From Streptomyces sp. XD-27 (lineage in GTDB: Bacteria > Actinomycetota > Actinomycetes > Streptomycetales > Streptomycetaceae): 64,000 nt of DNA. The notes under the pieces were generated by a model. It was not told the DNA's origin and did no database searches. It saw nothing but the letters and a program-made list of their open reading frames with translations. Of the stretch, positions 1 to 8,363 are shown in pieces. The stretch lies in NCBI RefSeq assembly GCF_030553055.1, contig NZ_CP130713.1, forward strand, positions 6,634,001-6,698,000, read 5' to 3'. How positions within the stretch are numbered: the stretch's first letter is position 1; every line of letters starts with the position of its first letter. The translations under genes were made by a program, and so were the position numbers.

Positions 1-357
1 ATGGTCGATGAGCCCCAGCCGGATGCCCAGGACGACTCCTTCGCCGGTTCGCGCGAGCACGTACCGGGCGACTGCCTGGACCGCCGCCTGGGCGACGAAG
101 AGGGCGATCAGCACGCCGATGTAGCCGCCGAGACCGCGGTCGGAGCCGGCCGCCTCGATCACGTTCTTGACCACCAGGGGCTGGGCCAGGCCGAGCGCCG
201 AGCCGACCAGCGTCAGGGCCACCGCGCCCGAGATCCAGCGCCAGTGCCCGCGCAGGACGCGCAGCACCTGGCGCGGCGCCGACGCCGGTACGGCGGGCAC
301 GGGATTCCGGGGCGCGGGACCCGTGGCCGCGGACTCGCGATCGGGGCGGCGGCTCAT
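1..357 (-). CDS. ABC transporter with fused membrane and ATPase parts, lasso-peptide exporter (partial)
   Basis: Only the first 119 residues are present; the gene runs off the left edge. The visible part is a short polar, Pro/Ala-rich N-terminus followed by a hydrophobic segment at about residues 40-65 and another at about 78-95, as in the first two membrane spans of an exporter half-transporter. The ATPase domain would lie outside the window. The ATG at 355-357 overlaps the TGA of the transglutaminase-like gene (ATGA), so the two are translationally coupled. Position at the end of a lasso cluster makes it the likely D component that exports the mature peptide and gives self-immunity; this role is inferred from context. 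Confidence 0.8.
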   Translation of the reverse strand, partial: MSRRPDRESAATGPAPRNPVPAVPASAPRQVLRVLRGHWRWISGAVALTLVGSALGLAQPLVVKNVIEAAGSDRGLGGYIGVLIALFVAQAAVQAVARYVLARTGEGVVLGIRLGLIDH

Positions 358-764
358 GGGACGGTGAAGAAGGTCCGGAAGTAGTCGGGCGGGTGGTCCT
401 CGCCGACCACCAGGCCCTCCGCCTCCACCCAGGCGTGCGCGCCGAACGGGGGTATCCGCCGGACCCCCACGCACCAGGTCGGCCACTGGCCGTGCACCCG
501 GCAGAGCAAGGCGGTCGCCAGGGACCTGGGCAGGCAGCCCTCGGGACCGGTGCAGGCGAGGCTGACCGCGGTGACGGCGTCCCGCGCCGCCTTGGCCTCC
601 GCGTAGCTGGCCGGCCGGGCATCGCGGCTCACCCGGGCGAGCACCGCGCGGATCCGGCGGGGCGGCCGGCGGGCGAGCACCCGGGCGCAGCCGACGGCCA
701 GGTGGGTGAGCATCCGGCGCGGCATCGGCACCGAGCGCGGGTTGTAGGAGATCACGTGGCTCAC
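354..764 (-). CDS. lasso peptide leader protease B2 (transglutaminase-like)
   Basis: A 136-residue protein of the lasso B2 family, the cysteine protease that removes the leader peptide with help from B1. The papain/transglutaminase-type triad is visible: Cys in GCLPRSLA (about residue 77), His in FGAHAWVE (about 110) and an Asp in the following GEDHPPDY stretch. The GTG start at 762-764 is chosen because a strong ribosome site (GGAGAGGAG) sits just before it; the same frame is open far upstream but only as a shadow. It lies 32 nt after B1 and overlaps the exporter start by 4 nt, so B1, B2 and the exporter look like one operon. Confidence 0.9.
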   Translation of the reverse strand: MSHVISYNPRSVPMPRRMLTHLAVGCARVLARRPPRRIRAVLARVSRDARPASYAEAKAARDAVTAVSLACTGPEGCLPRSLATALLCRVHGQWPTWCVGVRRIPPFGAHAWVEAEGLVVGEDHPPDYFRTFFTVP

Positions 765-796
765 CGGACTCTCCTCTCCGACCTGCCGGGTGGACG

Positions 797-1054
797 TCAG
801 GGCTCCAGCAGCCCCGCCGACCGCAGCGTCGCAACCAGCTCCGTCACGTCCACGCGGGCGGTCTCGGCGTCCACGTCGTATGCCTCGGTCAGCTCCCGGG
901 CCGCCTGCTCGGGGGTGCCTCCGGCCAGGAGCGTGCGCAGCGCCTGGGCCCCGGTGGGGTTCAGGTTCCAGTACTGGCCGGTGTCCTCGTCGAGCAGTGC
1001 GATCCCCTCGTCGGTGTCGGCGCGGGACACGCCGTCGCGCAGCCTGAGCGTCAT
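797..1054 (-). CDS. lasso peptide RRE protein B1 (PqqD-like)
   Basis: An 85-residue stand-alone RiPP recognition element of the PqqD fold. In lasso pathways this protein binds the YxxPxLxxxG motif of the leader and delivers the precursor to the B2 protease. Family features are the GIALLDEDTGQYWNLN strand pair at about residues 17-32 and the helical C-terminus rich in Ala, Leu and acidic residues. The ATG at 1052-1054 overlaps the TGA of the cyclase gene in an ATGA junction. The longer reading frame to 1177 is rejected because it runs into the cyclase gene. Confidence 0.9.
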   Translation of the reverse strand: MTLRLRDGVSRADTDEGIALLDEDTGQYWNLNPTGAQALRTLLAGGTPEQAARELTEAYDVDAETARVDVTELVATLRSAGLLEP

Positions 1055-2900
1055 GGCCTCGCTCCCGTGCTCGGGACGGTCGTACGCCGCAGCGTGCGGA
1101 GCCACACCTCGCAGGCGACCGTCTGGTAGAGCGCACCGTGCAGGTCGTGGGGACCGGCGCGCATCGGATTGCGGCACAGCTCACGAAGCCGGGCGGCGTC
1201 GATCAAGCCCATTCTCGCGAGCAGCGAGTCCTCCCACAGCCGTAGGAGTTCCGCCTGGTTCTCGCGCAGGGCGACGTCCAGGTCGGAGATGCCCCCCGCC
1301 TTGGACTGCCGGGTCAGGGCGTCGGCCGGGACGACGCCGCGCATCGCCTCCACGAGCAGCGGTTTGTACTGCCAGGGGGTGTACTTCTCCTCCGGCCGTA
1401 CGGACAGGGACGCCTCGAGCACCCGGTCATCGCTGTAGGGGGCGGCAAGGGTGAGCCCCGCCCGGTCCGCGAGCCAGGCCACCTCGCGGAGCGGACGGGC
1501 CGCGTCCAGTACGCCCAGCAGATTGCCGTGGTGGTCTCGGCGCCCGGCCAGTGGCTCGGCCGACGGCGCCTCGGCGCGGATCAGCTCCCGTACGGCGGTG
1601 GCGGTGTCCACGGTCGCCCACGGCGGCAGCAGCGGCGGTGGCCCCCAACCGAGCGGCGGAGTGTCCCGGGGCGGCGGGGGCCGGTCAGCCGCTCCGAGAC
1701 TCCGAGCAACCAGGCACTGTAGCCCCGGTTGTCCCACAGCTGCCGCAGCATCAGCCCCAGCGGCCAGCGGTACGCGGCGGCGATGCCGCGCAGCCGCCGC
1801 GTAGCGACCACCGGGTGCCGGACCAGCAACGCCCGCAGGTGGAAGGGCAGGCCGCTCAGCAACTCGTCGCCGCAGAAGCCGGTCAGGTGCAGCCGCGAAC
1901 CGCGGGCGAGGGCTCGGTGCGCGATGGTGAACCACCGCGCGTGGTCCGCGGCTGCACGGCAGGGTTCGTCCATGGGCTCGTTGAGGTCCAGCAGGCCGTG
2001 GTAGACGAGCGGTAGCTCCGCCACCGGAATGACGTGGTGCTCCAGGGCGGGCAGCGCGCCCGCGGTGCGCCGCGCCCAGGTCACGTCATCTTCCAGCGGG
2101 TCCGGGCTCGCCGCCGTATACGCGACGACCCGCGCGCCCGACCGGACGGCCAGGCAGCACACCGACGTCGAATCCAGGCCGCTCAGATCGCTGCTGACGA
2201 GCTCGTGCCCCTCGACCCGGGCGGCCACCGCTGCTGCCAGCGCCTCCCGTAGCGCGGCGGCGCCTTCGGCGAGGGACCACCGCGCCTCCGGCGGTGTCCA
2301 CCACCTGGTGTGGTGTGACTGCCCGTCATCGTCGAGGACCAGACAGCTGTCCGTCGGCAGCCCGCGCACCCCACGCCACAGGGGGACGTCGGTCAGCGGC
2401 GGCAGCGCGGGCGGGTCCAGCAGATGCAGCGCCAGACGGCCTTCATCCAGCGGCGCGTCGAGCAGGAAAGCCAAAGTGTCGGCCCGGTCCGCGGCGACGG
2501 TGACGGGCCCGAATTCCGCCGCGAACACCCGTCGGATTCCGGTGACCGTGCCCTGAATGCGAACCTTTCCCGCCACGGACGCGACGACATGGGAACTCCC
2601 GGCCAATGTCGCCGATATGTGGTCGACGTCAGTGACATGATGCAACCGGGCAGCGGCTTCGGTGAGTTCGCGAGTGGTCACGACGTGTTGCCCGATGACC
2701 GCGAGCGCGTTGTTCCCGCAGGTCCCGACGGTCACGGTGCCTGGACGCCAACGTCCCACCAGCCACGGGCGGCCGGAGGGATGTCGGATTCTCTGGTCGG
2801 CGCAACCGCGCAGAGCGCCTTCGACAGGGCCTGCCGCGGAATGATCCGGAAGAGCCACGAACCACGAGGGAAGTGCGGCGAGGCCGGTCGGTCGCACCAC
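1051..2900 (-). pseudogene. lasso cyclase C, asparagine-synthetase-like, interrupted by a frameshift
   Basis: The two halves together give the usual length of about 616 residues. The N-terminal half (GTG at 2898-2900, preceded by GGAAGGGG) has the glutamine-amidotransferase-like region, then the ATP-pyrophosphatase signature LSGLDSTSV near residue 240 and LTGFCGDELL near 340. The C-terminal half continues one frame over from about 1680 with PYSDDRVLEASL and the conserved SKAGG region. The family adenylates the Asp/Glu side chain and closes the isopeptide ring. One extra base in the G4 (1668-1671) or G5 (1676-1680) run of the plus strand restores one open frame, so this may be an assembly error rather than a dead gene. 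It ends in an ATGA overlap with B1. Confidence 0.85.
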
Positions 2901-2922
2901 TGCAAACCGCCCCTTCCAGCCC

Positions 2923-2950
2923 GGTGGCAGGCGATTACACGCCTACCACC
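2923..2950 (-). promoter_or_regulatory. hairpin between lasso precursor and cyclase genes
   Basis: Two 11-bp arms (2923-2933 and 2940-2950), differing by one position that can form a G-U pair in RNA, enclose a 6-nt loop. It lies about 40 nt after the precursor stop and about 25 nt before the cyclase start. Hairpins here are expected to limit read-through so that precursor mRNA exceeds enzyme mRNA; that role is inferred. Confidence 0.5.
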
Positions 2951-2990
2951 AGGTCTTATCCGGATTGGTTACGGTCACTCCGCCGACCGC

Positions 2991-3116
2991 TCAGGTGAAC
3001 AGCGCGTGGTTGCGCCCCAAGAAGTCCTTGGGGCCACGCCGCTTGAACAGGAACAGCCCGGTCGCCTTGGTGAAGGTGCCGACCGCGGTCAGCGTGGGAC
3101 GCTCATATGCGCGCAT
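2991..3116 (-). CDS. lasso peptide precursor A
   Basis: A 41-residue peptide, too short for most gene finders. The leader carries the actinobacterial lasso recognition motif Y4-x2-P7-x-L9-x3-G13, then F15 and the conserved T19-G20 at the usual -2/-1 cleavage positions. Cleavage after G20 leaves a basic 21-residue core beginning L21-F22-L23-F24-K25-R26-R27-G28-P29-K30-D31. The only acidic residue is D31, at core position 11, whereas known rings close at 7 to 9. The codons for L21-F22 and L23-F24 are an exact 6-bp duplication; with one copy the ring would be a normal nine residues. A strong ribosome site (GGAGGTGG) precedes the ATG. It is the first gene of the cluster. Confidence 0.88.
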   Translation of the reverse strand: MRAYERPTLTAVGTFTKATGLFLFKRRGPKDFLGRNHALFT

Positions 3117-3335
3117 ACGGTTTCCACCTCCGTCCGTGCGGGTCGCGCGTGCCCACGACCCCGAACCGGGACGGTATTGAATTGCTCAACTACCAACACT
3201 CGTCCGTGTTTCGGTGGTTCGTTGGCATATACCCAGGATAGACCCGCGTGTGTGCCGTACGCCGTACAGGCGAGTTGCCGGGACCCGCGCGGCGGCAGTG
3301 GGGTGGCGGGCCCGGCAGACGCAGCGGGGGGTGTG

Positions 3336-3364
3336 TTGACGAAACATACGGCGGAGTGCATACT
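3336..3364 (+). promoter_or_regulatory. argG promoter, possibly overlapped by an ArgR box
   Basis: TTGACG at 3336-3341 and CATACT at 3359-3364 are separated by 17 bp, a good housekeeping-type promoter 37 nt before the argG start. The A/T-richer stretch from about 3357 to 3375 (TGCATACTTATACC) resembles half of an arginine-repressor box and would cover the -10 region. The promoter is well supported by spacing; the ArgR site is only a suggestion. The rest of 3117-3335 contains the divergent promoter region of the lasso precursor, where I see no clear -35/-10 pair. Confidence 0.55.
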
Positions 3365-3400
3365 TATACCCATCAGCGTATGGATCGTAAGGAGAATCCC

Positions 3401-4594
3401 GTGACCGAGCGCGTCGTACTCGCCTACTCGGGCGGACTGGACACCTCTGTCGCCATCGGCTGGATCGCCGAGGAGACTGGCGCCGAGGTCATCGCCGTCG
3501 CCGTGGACGTCGGCCAGGGCGGCGAGGACCTGGGCGTCATCCGTAAGCGCGCGCTCGCCTGCGGTGCCGTCGAGGCCGAGGTCGCGGACGCCAAGGACGA
3601 GTTCGCCGACGAGTACTGCCTCCCGGCGATCAAGGCCAATGCGCTGTACATGGACCGTTACCCGCTGGTGTCGGCGCTGTCCCGGCCGACGATCGTCAAG
3701 CACCTCGTCGCCGCCGCCAAGAAGCACGGTGCCTCCACCGTCGCGCACGGCTGCACCGGCAAGGGCAACGACCAGGTCCGGTTCGAGGCCGGGATCTCCT
3801 CCCTCGCCCCCGACCTGAAGTGCATCGCCCCGGTCCGTGACTATGCGATGACGCGGGACAAGGCCATCGCCTTCTGCGAGGCGAAGAACCTGCCGATCGC
3901 GACCACCAAGAAGTCCCCGTACTCGATCGACCAGAACGTCTTCGGGCGGGCCGTGGAGACCGGCTTCCTGGAGGACATTTGGAACGCGCCGATCGAGGAC
4001 ATCTACGAGTACACCTCGAACCCGGCGGTCGCGCGTGAGCCCGACGAGGTCGTGATCTCCTTCCGCGAGGGCGTGCCGGTGGCCATCGACGGCAAGCCCG
4101 TCACCGTGCTCCAGGCCATCCAGCAGCTGAACGAGCGGGCGGGCGCCCAGGGCATCGGCCGGATCGACATGGTCGAGGACCGGCTGGTCGGCATCAAGTC
4201 CCGCGAGGTCTACGAGGCCCCCGGCGCCATCGCGCTGATCACCGCCCACCAGGAGCTGGAGAGCGTCACGGTCGAGCGTGAGCTGGCCCGTTACAAGCGG
4301 CAGGTCGAGCAGCGCTGGGGCGAGCTGGTCTACGACGGCCTGTGGTTCTCCCCGCTCAAGCGGGCCCTGGACGGCTTCATCAACGAGGCCAACCAGCACG
4401 TCACCGGCGACATCCGGATGACGCTGCACGGCGGCCGCGCCGTCGTCACCGGCCGGAAGTCCGACGCCTCGCTGTACGACTTCAACCTCGCCACGTACGA
4501 CACCGGCGACACGTTCGACCAGTCGCTGTCGAAGGGCTTCATCGAGATCTTCGGCATGTCATCGAAGATCGCGGCCAAGCGCGACCTGGCCTGA
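3401..4594 (+). CDS. argG: argininosuccinate synthase
   Basis: A 397-residue enzyme that joins citrulline and aspartate using ATP, the penultimate step of arginine synthesis, in the cytosol. The N-terminal P-loop [10 protein letters not shown] (about residues 7-16), [13 protein letters not shown] near 125 and the KSPYSIDQN stretch near 170 are diagnostic, and the length is typical. The GTG at 3401 is preferred because AAGGAG lies at 3389-3394; an in-frame ATG at 3380 sits upstream of that ribosome site. argH follows, but a perfect hairpin separates them, so they may not share all transcription. Confidence 0.97.
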
Positions 4595-4604
4595 CGGTTA
4601 CCGC

Positions 4605-6138
<1,534 letters not shown>

Positions 6139-6236: not shown

Positions 6237-6260
6237 GGATGAGACATTGATGTCTCATCC
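6237..6260 (+). promoter_or_regulatory. TetR-type operator
   Basis: A perfect palindrome with 10-nt arms (GGATGAGACA and TGTCTCATCC) around 4 nt lies 17 nt before the regulator start. A third half-site, TGTCTCAT, recurs at 6271-6278 and runs into the start codon. This is what an autoregulating TetR repressor normally binds; no other gene lies between it and the TetR-MFS pair. Confidence 0.75.
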
Positions 6261-6276
6261 GGGTTATGTTTGTCTC

Positions 6277-6828
6277 ATGTCTGTTGATCGTGCCCACGTG
6301 CTCCGGGAAGCCGCCGCGCTGCTCACCCGTAAATCGACCGCGTCCATGGACGAGATCGCCAGAGCCGCCGGCATCAGCCGCGCCACCCTCCACCGGCACT
6401 TCGCCGGCCGCGACGCGCTGATCCGCGCCCTGGAGGAGCTGGGCATCGAGCAGTTCGAAGGGGCGCTGGACGCTGCCCGACTGGAGGAGGGCGACGCTGT
6501 CGACGCGTTGCGCCGACTGGTCGCGGCCGCGCGCCCGGTCTCCGGGTTCCTCGCCTTCCTCTACACCGAGAACCAGCTCTTCGAGGGCGAGGAGATCAAC
6601 GCGGGCTGGGCCCGGCTGGACGCGCGCGTGGGCGCCCTCTTCCGGCGCGGTCAGGAGGAGGGCGTGCTGCGCATCGACCTGACCCCGGCCTGGCTGACCG
6701 AGGCGTTGTACGGGCTGATCGCGGCGGCCGCCTGGGCGGTCCACGACGGACGGCTCGCCACCAAGGACATGGACTACATGATCGCCGAGCTGCTGCTCGG
6801 CGGAGCGCGGAGGAGTGCCGGGCGATGA
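6277..6828 (+). CDS. TetR-family transcriptional repressor
   Basis: A 183-residue regulator with an N-terminal helix-turn-helix at about residues 22-45 (STASMDEIARAAGISRATLHRHF) and a C-terminal helical ligand domain. The ATG at 6277 is used because the only earlier in-frame start lies inside the operator palindrome. There is no ribosome site before 6277, and TATGTT-like -10 bases lie about 8-10 nt upstream, so the mRNA may be leaderless. It overlaps the efflux gene in an ATGA junction. It probably represses both genes and is released by a substrate of the pump; the ligand is unknown. Confidence 0.92.
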   Translation: MSVDRAHVLREAAALLTRKSTASMDEIARAAGISRATLHRHFAGRDALIRALEELGIEQFEGALDAARLEEGDAVDALRRLVAAARPVSGFLAFLYTENQLFEGEEINAGWARLDARVGALFRRGQEEGVLRIDLTPAWLTEALYGLIAAAAWAVHDGRLATKDMDYMIAELLLGGARRSAGR

Positions 6829-8363
6829 GCGCCAAGCTGACCGAACGGGAAGCCGCCCCCCAGCTGCGGCCCGGACGGTGGCTCGCCCTCGCCGTCCTGG
6901 TGCTCGCCGTCCTGCTGGTCGCCGTGGACGCGACCGTGCTGGGCCTGGCCACCCCGTACCTGAGCGAGGATCTGCGCCCCTCCAGCACCCAGCTGCTGTG
7001 GATAGGCGACGTCTACTCCTTCGTCATCGCCGGACTGCTGGTCTCCATGGGCAGCCTCGGCGACCGCGTCGGCCGCAAGAAGCTGCTGCTCTGGGGCTCG
7101 GTCGCGTTCGGTGCCGTCTCCGTGCTCAACGCCTACGCCGACAGCCCCGAGATGATGATCGCCGCCCGGGCCCTGCTGGGCGTGGCCGGTGCGACGCTCA
7201 TGCCCGCCACCCTCGCCCTGATCCGCAACCTCTTCCACGACCCGCGGGAGCGCAGCCTCGCCGTCGGCATCTGGGGCGCGACCGCCTCGGCCGGTGCCGC
7301 GGTCGGCCCGGTCGTCGGCGGGTTCCTGCTGGAGCACTTCTGGTGGGGGTCGGTGTTCCTCATCAACCTGCCGGTGATGGCGGTCCTCGTCCTCGTCGGC
7401 GTCCGGCTGCTGCCCGAGTCGCGCGACCCCGCGCCCGGCCCCTGGGACCTGCTCAGTGTGGCGCTGTCCCTGGTCGGCGTGGTCGCCGTGGTCTACGGCG
7501 TGAAGGAGGCGGCGGCCTACGGGATGCGCTGGGACGTCGCGGCGGCGGGTGCGGTCGGCGCGGGCGCCCTGCTGTGGTTCGTACGGCGGCAGCTCACCCT
7601 CCCCGTACCGCTGCTGGACATGCGGCTGTTCCGGCACCGCGGCTTCTCCGGGGCGATCCTGGCGGACCTGCTCACGATCCTCGGGCTCTCCGGCCTGATC
7701 TTCTTCCTCTCCCAGTTCCTGCAACTGGTGCAGGGCCGCGAGCCACTGGAGGCGGGGCTCGCCGAACTGCCCGCCGCCATCGGAGCGGTGACGGCCGGGC
7801 TGGTGGCGGGGACGGCGGCCCGCCGGTTCTCGGTGCGGGCCGTGGTCGCCGGCGGACTGGCGGCGGTCGGCCTCGCCCTCGCCGCGCTGGCCTGGCTGGA
7901 GACCGGCACCGGCTATCCGGTGCTCGGTTCGGTCCTGCTGGTCGTCGGCGTCGGCGCGGGCTTCTCCTTCACCGTCACCGCGGACGTCATCCTCTCCAGT
8001 GTGCCCAAGGAGCAGGCCGGTGCCGCCTCCGCGGTGTCGGAGACCGCGTACGAACTGGGCGCGGCGCTCGGCATCGCCGTGCTCGGCTCCATCGTCACCG
8101 GGGTCTACCGCGACTTCACCGTCCCCGCCGGCGCGGCGGGCGTGACCGGCGACGCGCACGACTCCCTCGGCGGTGCCGTGGAGTCGTCGGCCGGGCTGCC
8201 CGCCCCCGTCGCCGCGGACCTGCTGGACTCGGCCCGCGAGGCGTTCGTCGAGGGGCTGCGGAGCGCGGCCGTGGTGGGCGCGTCCGTGCTCCTGGTGGCG
8301 GCGGTGGCGGCCTGGTTCCTGCTGCGCGGGCAGAGGTTGGCGGACAGCGCGCACGAGGAGTGA
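6825..8363 (+). CDS. MFS multidrug efflux transporter, DHA2 (14-TMS) family
   Basis: A 512-residue inner-membrane proton antiporter. Family marks are the VAVDATVLGLATPYLSEDL region in TM1, the cytoplasmic loop motif GDRVGRKK near residue 82-89 and the long hydrophobic series typical of the 14-span QacA/SmvA type. TM5 carries the antiporter motif region GATASAGAAVGPVVGG. It is translationally coupled to the TetR gene, so it is most likely a drug or metabolite exporter under that repressor's control. Substrate cannot be told from sequence. Confidence 0.93.
   Translation: MSAKLTEREAAPQLRPGRWLALAVLVLAVLLVAVDATVLGLATPYLSEDLRPSSTQLLWIGDVYSFVIAGLLVSMGSLGDRVGRKKLLLWGSVAFGAVSVLNAYADSPEMMIAARALLGVAGATLMPATLALIRNLFHDPRERSLAVGIWGATASAGAAVGPVVGGFLLEHFWWGSVFLINLPVMAVLVLVGVRLLPESRDPAPGPWDLLSVALSLVGVVAVVYGVKEAAAYGMRWDVAAAGAVGAGALLWFVRRQLTLPVPLLDMRLFRHRGFSGAILADLLTILGLSGLIFFLSQFLQLVQGREPLEAGLAELPAAIGAVTAGLVAGTAARRFSVRAVVAGGLAAVGLALAALAWLETGTGYPVLGSVLLVVGVGAGFSFTVTADVILSSVPKEQAGAASAVSETAYELGAALGIAVLGSIVTGVYRDFTVPAGAAGVTGDAHDSLGGAVESSAGLPAPVAADLLDSAREAFVEGLRSAAVVGASVLLVAAVAAWFLLRGQRLADSAHEE

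Follow-up and report, generated by a model that had tools for sequence, protein, structure and literature searches.

A small Streptomyces subfamily of predicted lasso peptide precursors with the core acid at positions 9 to 11

Excerpted text of PMC10368454 places the acidic residue of lasso peptides at core position 7-9 and describes a Thr at leader position -2 as general up to that time. Among described systems, lagmysin, listed with the core LAGQGSPDLLGGHSLL in excerpts of PMC12427821, has a leader of the same family as the precursor studied here. Precursors with exactly the lagmysin core were recovered in our searches (among them L022, L025, L069 and L070), and two of the loci, L022 and L025, have the same A-C-B1-B2 gene order as our locus. 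Lagmysin differs in having its Asp at position 8 without any insert and a synthetase falling in another clade. The precursors called keywimysin-related RiPP or assigned to DUF5972 share the leader, the T-G dipeptide and the G-P-x-acid ring end with the group described below, several members of which also bear the NCBI name keywimysin-related RiPP. They carry the acid at position 8 in 119 of the 131 precursors listed, whereas it lies at position 9 to 11 in our group, hereafter called late. As to ring size, the fusilassin/fuscanodin enzymes accept rings of 7-10 residues according to partial text of PMC13352647 and PMC8498205, so that 10-residue rings are within reach of a lasso synthetase; this was achieved with an engineered substrate, the native ring having 9 residues, whereas the acid positions 10 and 11 of the late clade are genome-encoded. 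Finally, the class V peptide lariocidin B is described in excerpts of PMC11451635 and PMC12427821 as a lasso peptide with an isopeptide bond on a Lys side chain. In contrast to what is considered below, this is a second bond, made to the C-terminus and dependent on a clostripain-like peptidase, and the lariocidin ring itself runs from the N-terminus to Asp8.

The window analysed here is a stretch of 64,000 nucleotides of the genome of Streptomyces sp. XD-27, which is assembled as one contig of 7.55 Mb. By homology, the ORF of interest is a lasso precursor: its leader scored above the cut-offs of both Pfam DUF5972 (31.3 bits, cut-off 22.6) and NCBIfam lasso_leader_L3 (20.0 bits, cut-off 19). 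Because lasC, B1, B2 and an ABC transporter gene lie downstream on the same strand, the ORF is not a chance one. Its translation consists of the leader MRAYERPTLTAVGTFTKATG followed by the core LFLFKRRGPKDFLGRNHALFT. The leader residues Y4, P7, L9, G13 and T19-G20 on which the original prediction was built were all found, as were the basic core residues K25, R26, R27, K30 and R35. Assuming cleavage after G20, Thr is present at leader position -2 and D31, the only acid of the core, falls at core position 11 as had been claimed, outside the textbook range of 7-9 for Asp or Glu. The coordinates are given in Table 1. The core also holds a perfect inverted repeat on the minus strand (window 3014-3034, codons G28-R35) whose arms, GCCCCAAG and CTTGGGGC, enclose a loop of 5 bases; by eye, it was not seen in the precursors of L011, L012, L101, L076 and L102. 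The precursor mRNA has an ordinary folding energy (z -0.29), and no terminator was found by scanning positions 2850-3420 of the window.

Table 1. Features of the lasso gene cluster and its flank, in window coordinates
Feature	Position	Strand	Basis or remark
ABC transporter gene start	1..357	minus	ABC_membrane/ABC_tran; extends past the window edge in one frame
B2, leader peptidase	354..767	minus	lasso_biosyn_B2 121 bits, cut-off 33
B1, PqqD/RRE protein	797..1057	minus	lasso_PqqD_Strm 110.9 bits, cut-off 70
lasC 3' part, other frame	1051..1935	minus	homologous from about 1,680 on
lasC 5' part (Asn_synthase, macrolactam cyclase)	1581..2900	minus	homology to about 1,710
Lasso precursor A, 41 aa	2991..3116	minus (3116 -> 2991)	ORF; DUF5972 and lasso_leader_L3 matches
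Asp31 codon, sole core acid	3024..3026	minus	core position 11 assuming cleavage after G20
8-residue block F24-K-R-R-G-P-K-D31	3024..3047	minus	lines up with residues 1-8 of canonical rings
Lys25 codon (Asp minus 6)	3042..3044	minus	invariant in 12/12 late cores
CTGTTC x 2, L21-F24	3045..3056	minus	sequence
Insert L21-F22-L23 between T-G and block	3048..3056	minus	12-core comparison
Leader, last residues T19-G20	3057..3116	minus	T-G 15 residues past leader Tyr in 12/12 late precursors
Ribosome-binding-site-like GGAGGTGG, Shine-Dalgarno-like	3124..3131	minus	7 nt 5' of precursor ATG
argG	3401..4594	plus	one flank of shared chromosomal slot
argH (argininosuccinate lyase)	4708..6138	plus	Pfam naming

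B1, with its RRE, and the peptidase B2 adjoin the precursor in a gene cluster, and the ABC transporter (12301-10583 of L104) is 70% identical to its L011 counterpart over 573 residues. No peptidase was recognised among the eight cluster or flanking proteins named by Pfam, the flanks being partly annotated. By translation, a TetR-like regulator adjoins an MFS-like transporter further along (window 6247-8363, plus strand). The macrolactam cyclase gene is not intact in the window: in the sequence as given, lasC is frameshifted, with one break of the reading frame at about 1,680-1,710 (minus strand) in a stretch of G/C runs and homology on both sides of it. The two frame-split parts of the gene scored 133.5 and 94.4 bits against the Albusnodin/ikarugamycin-type cyclase NF033561, for a cut-off of 300. 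The original prediction had overlooked this frameshift. The five late relatives inspected (L011, L012, L076, L101 and L102) all have lasC in a single frame, and the same was found for 34 of the 35 other loci examined, these five included; in this check L037 was flagged with a matched region extending 15 nt beyond the stop, and part of the lasC gene was covered in L040.

The frameshift may be real or an assembly error, so the window strain may make nothing. That the frameshift is real and the precursor no longer matured in this strain is, in our estimate, an even bet, and this reading is compatible with any of those given below for the clade, so that the odds do not sum to one. The homology on either side of the break and the assembly into a single contig speak for a dead cluster. 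An ortholog comparison of 400 kb with one relative gave 98 matched ORFs and 9 candidate breaks (93 and 6 in the reverse direction); most of the 7 candidates inspected coincided with gene boundaries and one stood out as a clear single-base break, so sequence errors are not obviously frequent. This break, at about 8695 of L136 in the genome of the window and defined relative to G676, falls in a gene that looks by eye like an acyl-CoA ligase. On the other side, the lasC break sits in a stretch of G/C runs, the precursor, B1, B2 and the ABC transporter gene are all open, and the assembly has a completeness of 96.92%, compared with 98-100% in the remaining listed genomes of this genus that are likewise single contigs, which is a weak hint of indel errors. 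A codon-usage scan for frame breaks over 404 kb gave 9 candidates, none with a two-sided overrun, and missed the lasC break; a revised version was dropped as too noisy, since it kept 183 of 288 candidates. The same genome holds two further DUF5972 matches above cut-off. One of them is a second lasso precursor (L008 1498-1608, C1:854254), whose core LLQSSGNDRLIFSKN has Asp at position 8 after T-G and resembles citrulassin, given as LLGLAGNDRLVLSKN in a table of the excerpted PMC12427821.

Related precursors were collected by several searches. A scan of genome contigs with five precursors returned 35 loci. The nearest named relatives are those of S. aureoverticillatus, in which WKATG is followed by MALKRTGPPDFLGQHSILR, beginning MALKRTGPPD, and of S. 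longisporoflavus, in which WKVTG is followed by MALKRKGPPDFLGQHSILR, beginning MALKRKGPPD. Asp is at position 10 in both, without any LFLF. The genus search covered 392 genomes, 61 of them with a match, and precursors were read for 30 loci, of which 4 were late: our own, these two and G124, with the core KPFRKGKGPPDIVIKGNLL and Asp at 11. Searching 394 genomes of the family gave 18 with a match and 3 late loci, namely our own, G757 and G676; the new cores are GRVKRTGPPDILHRHRLVG and HFRKGKGPPDILFKGNLL, both with Asp at 10. Two more searches of 346 genomes each, largely overlapping the earlier ones, yielded no new late members. Three late precursors used as protein queries retrieved 15 proteins, among which were those of S. 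albiaxialis (KLIKRTGPPDFLGQHSLLR) and S. flavidovirens (GRVKRTGPPD, GRAVKRTGPPD and GRGVKGTGPPD) and one with LVKKKGPPDFLGQHSILR and Asp at 9. Five cyclases were retrieved from the plasmid collection at E values up to 1e-60, with 39-40% identity.

We parsed 131 listed precursor proteins, one source search contributing 120 of the 165 found. The acid is at position 8 in 119 of them, at 7 in 1, at 9 in 1, at 10 in 4 and at 11 in 4; 1 has no acid from position 7 on and 1 was left unparsed. Including those known from loci only, the distinct late cores number 12, with the acid at 9 (1 core), 10 (6) or 11 (5). By our own grouping they represent about four lineages and are thus less evidence than 12 independent cases. 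Some unusual precursors were met along the way. For instance, S. lomondensis (L019 5001-5096) combines a normal leader with a short core, LAPTEGPNGSSV, without acid at position 7 or later; it lies beside a one-frame lasC and is possibly a decayed precursor. P0039 is of canonical type without the first ring residue, T-G being followed by KNTGPKDVLGGKQLL with the acid at 7 and Lys as residue 1. The metagenomic P0077, P0080 and P0085 have three leader-like repeats before the core (YDCPTL, then ERPTL units), and P0080 has T-A in place of T-G.

Comparison of the 12 late cores revealed a common organisation. T-G is kept in all of them, 15 residues past the leader Tyr. It is followed by an insert of 1-3 hypervariable residues (LFL, MA, MA, KL, L, KI, GR, GRA, GRG, KPF, KPF and HF), then by an 8-residue block of the form [L/I/V/F/R]-K-x-x-[G/A]-[P/S]-x-D. 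Only two core residues are invariant in the 12, namely the Asp and the Lys six positions before it; G, P and P at -3, -2 and -1 from the Asp are each found in 11 of 12. The hydrophobic residue found as L, I, V, M or F at position 1 of 116 of the 119 canonical cores has its counterpart seven positions before the Asp in 9 of the 12 late cores, and a hydrophobic residue comes first after T-G in 4 of 12. Lastly, the block and the tail together make 16 or 17 residues in 11 of 12 late cores, as they do in 118 of 119 canonical ones.

A synthetase tree was calculated from B1, B2 and LasC, leaving the precursor aside; 34 of 39 loci were kept and 5 incomplete ones dropped. All 6 late loci fell on one branch, with support of 100/99 and in 100% of 200 bootstrap trees. 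Two of the 28 tree rows labelled acid8 (L019 and L044) are merely 'not late'. With these two omitted, at least 2 changes of acid position were counted inside the late clade over a branch length of 1.75, versus none over 5.81 elsewhere; by branch length alone, both changes would fall in the late clade with a chance of 0.05, which is at most suggestive. The chromosomal setting is shared by 4 of the 6 late loci: in the window, G124, G757 and G676, argR (97-98% identical) flanks the cluster on one side and argG (92-95% identical) on the other, some loci having extra genes in the interval. We take this slot to be old and probably inherited vertically. Neither argR nor argG was found within the 10-12 kb examined around L011 and L012. 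The late precursors are best regarded as a small monophyletic DUF5972 subfamily in Streptomyces.

Clade-specific changes in the synthetase were compared as a test of a larger ring against a shifted cut. At conserved positions, changes specific to the late clade amounted to 6 of 157 in LasC, 1 of 25 in B1 and 1 of 58 in B2, and those of the lagmysin-type control clade to 10 of 150, 3 of 22 and 0 of 54, respectively. The late-clade changes showed no bias towards LasC (Fisher P 0.68), and similar ones occurred in control clades, so this test does not tell a larger ring from a shifted cut. The PP-loop DLSGLDST of the late enzymes (DLGGLDST otherwise) was rejected as a mark of the clade, its Ser being common to L044, which lies outside. 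A model of the late LasC of L011 has a predicted asparagine-synthetase-like fold, matching AsnB and beta-lactam synthetase, and says nothing on ring size. Searching solved structures with the LasC profile gave no match at E 0.001.

Among the possible maturation routes for the late clade, we favour normal cleavage followed by closure of an enlarged ring, with a rough probability of 40%. B1 would hold the leader and, as is usual for lasso peptides, B2 would cut after T-G; a tolerant cyclase would then join the new N-terminus to the Asp, yielding rings of 9-11 residues. For the window peptide the ring would have 11 residues, provided lasC is intact. The cut site is arguably unchanged because T-G stays at a fixed distance in the leader of all 12 precursors, and the one-frame LasC of the five late relatives, the single clade of the late loci and the shared argR-argG slot were also counted for this route. 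Furthermore, the range of the fusilassin enzymes in the partial texts cited above makes a 10-residue ring enzymatically possible. Against it, the passages and matches listed from open-licence PMC text included no natural ring above 9 residues, the altered fusilassin being the sole case above 9. The size of the ring counts in the same direction: a ring of 10 residues closed on Asp would contain 31 atoms and one of 11 residues 34, compared with 23-29 for rings from 7-Glu to 9-Glu. By the same formula 8-residue Asp and Glu rings have 25 and 26 atoms and a 9-residue Asp ring 28, which equals the figure given for a 9-aa ring in excerpted text of PMC13352647. In our judgement, tails such as IVIKGNLL, without an obvious bulky plug, also weigh against an enlarged ring. 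Finally, a variable insert, a constant block and a canonical length of block plus tail are as expected if the insert lies outside the ring.

Two other routes would place it there. In the first, somewhat unlikely in our view, the insert is an extension of the leader and B2 cuts 1-3 residues later, or the insert is trimmed off before cyclisation, leaving an ordinary 8-residue ring [L/I/V/F/R]-K-x-x-G-P-x-D. Such processing is favoured by the constant length of the block next to an insert that varies freely in both length and sequence, by the hydrophobic residue seven positions before the Asp, as at canonical position 1, and by the canonical length of block plus tail. However, it is T-G that stays at a fixed distance, and positions -2 and -1 of the shifted cut are patternless; excerpts of PMC10368454 give cutting two residues past a conserved residue (Thr, or Ile in one group) as general. 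Cutting and ring closure moreover appear to be coupled, according to partial text of PMC10885120, which leaves little room for trimming; no peptidase was among the eight Pfam-named cluster or flanking proteins of the window, and B2 is changed at the single conserved position mentioned above.

The second route, distinctly less probable again, keeps the normal cut, but the activated Asp would be attacked by the epsilon-amine of the invariant Lys and not by the amine of the N-terminus. The product would be a 7-residue ring closed from side chain to side chain, leaving 2-4 N-terminal residues as a free tail. Such closure would explain jointly why T-G is kept, why the insert is free to vary and why the Lys is invariant, and its 26 ring atoms equal those of an 8-residue Glu ring. 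The Lys and the Asp are the only invariant residues of the 12 cores, and Lys occupies that position in 11 of the 119 canonical ones. The same Lys is present without insert in some relatives with the acid at position 8, which speaks against this route, as do the few independent lineages. Lasso cyclases are not known to accept the amine of a side chain as nucleophile. The Lys isopeptide of lariocidin B shows that the bond exists in a lasso peptide (PMC11451635; PMC12427821, both in part), but it is no precedent for the cyclase, since in excerpted text of PMC11451635 the second-ring form is lost on deleting the clostripain-like peptidase gene.

The idea that a recent CTGTTC duplication pushed the Asp from position 9 to 11 is very improbable: the repeat is exact at the DNA level, but relatives without LFLF, S. 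aureoverticillatus and S. longisporoflavus among them, still have Asp at 10 or 11, and the unrelated inserts KPF, GRA and GRG likewise place it at 11. The two CTGTTC units are exact copies, as the original prediction had stated. Over 404 kb of the same genome, CTG makes up 4413 of 7551 Leu codons and TTC 1865 of 1917 Phe codons; by arithmetic from this usage, both units of an LFLF would carry identical codons in about 43% of cases anyway, making the exact repeat weak evidence of recent duplication. Removing one LF does bring the Asp to position 9 by arithmetic, the norm of the family being 8, however. Inactivation of the product by the duplication found no support; what may have inactivated the window copy is another lesion, the frameshift in lasC. 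A later cut and a ring larger than those known, which had also been put forward, are retained as readings, without the LF duplication as their cause.

Whichever route operates, the late clade breaks the rule of a 7-9-residue ring, or that of a cut two residues after Thr, or else closes its ring otherwise. If the N-terminus closes the ring, the two rules used in genome prediction (Thr cut, acid at 7-9) cannot both hold here, and a late-clade product predicted by both would be wrong; leader-based annotation nevertheless catches several late members, as their NCBI names indicate. The clade also offers natural pairs differing by one residue at the insert (GR/GRA, HF/KPF and L/MA), which make limits on ring size or cleavage site testable with wild-type clusters; two such clusters belong to culture-collection strains, S. 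longisporoflavus JCM 4396 and S. aureoverticillatus JCM 4347. Were side-chain closure true, the N-terminus would be freed while a ring of the usual size (26 atoms) is kept, the tail of 2-4 residues would be free to vary and the two invariant core residues would be the two bond partners. The interest of this locus lies in the late-acid clade to which it belongs, in place of the duplication first proposed, even though the window copy itself may be inactive.
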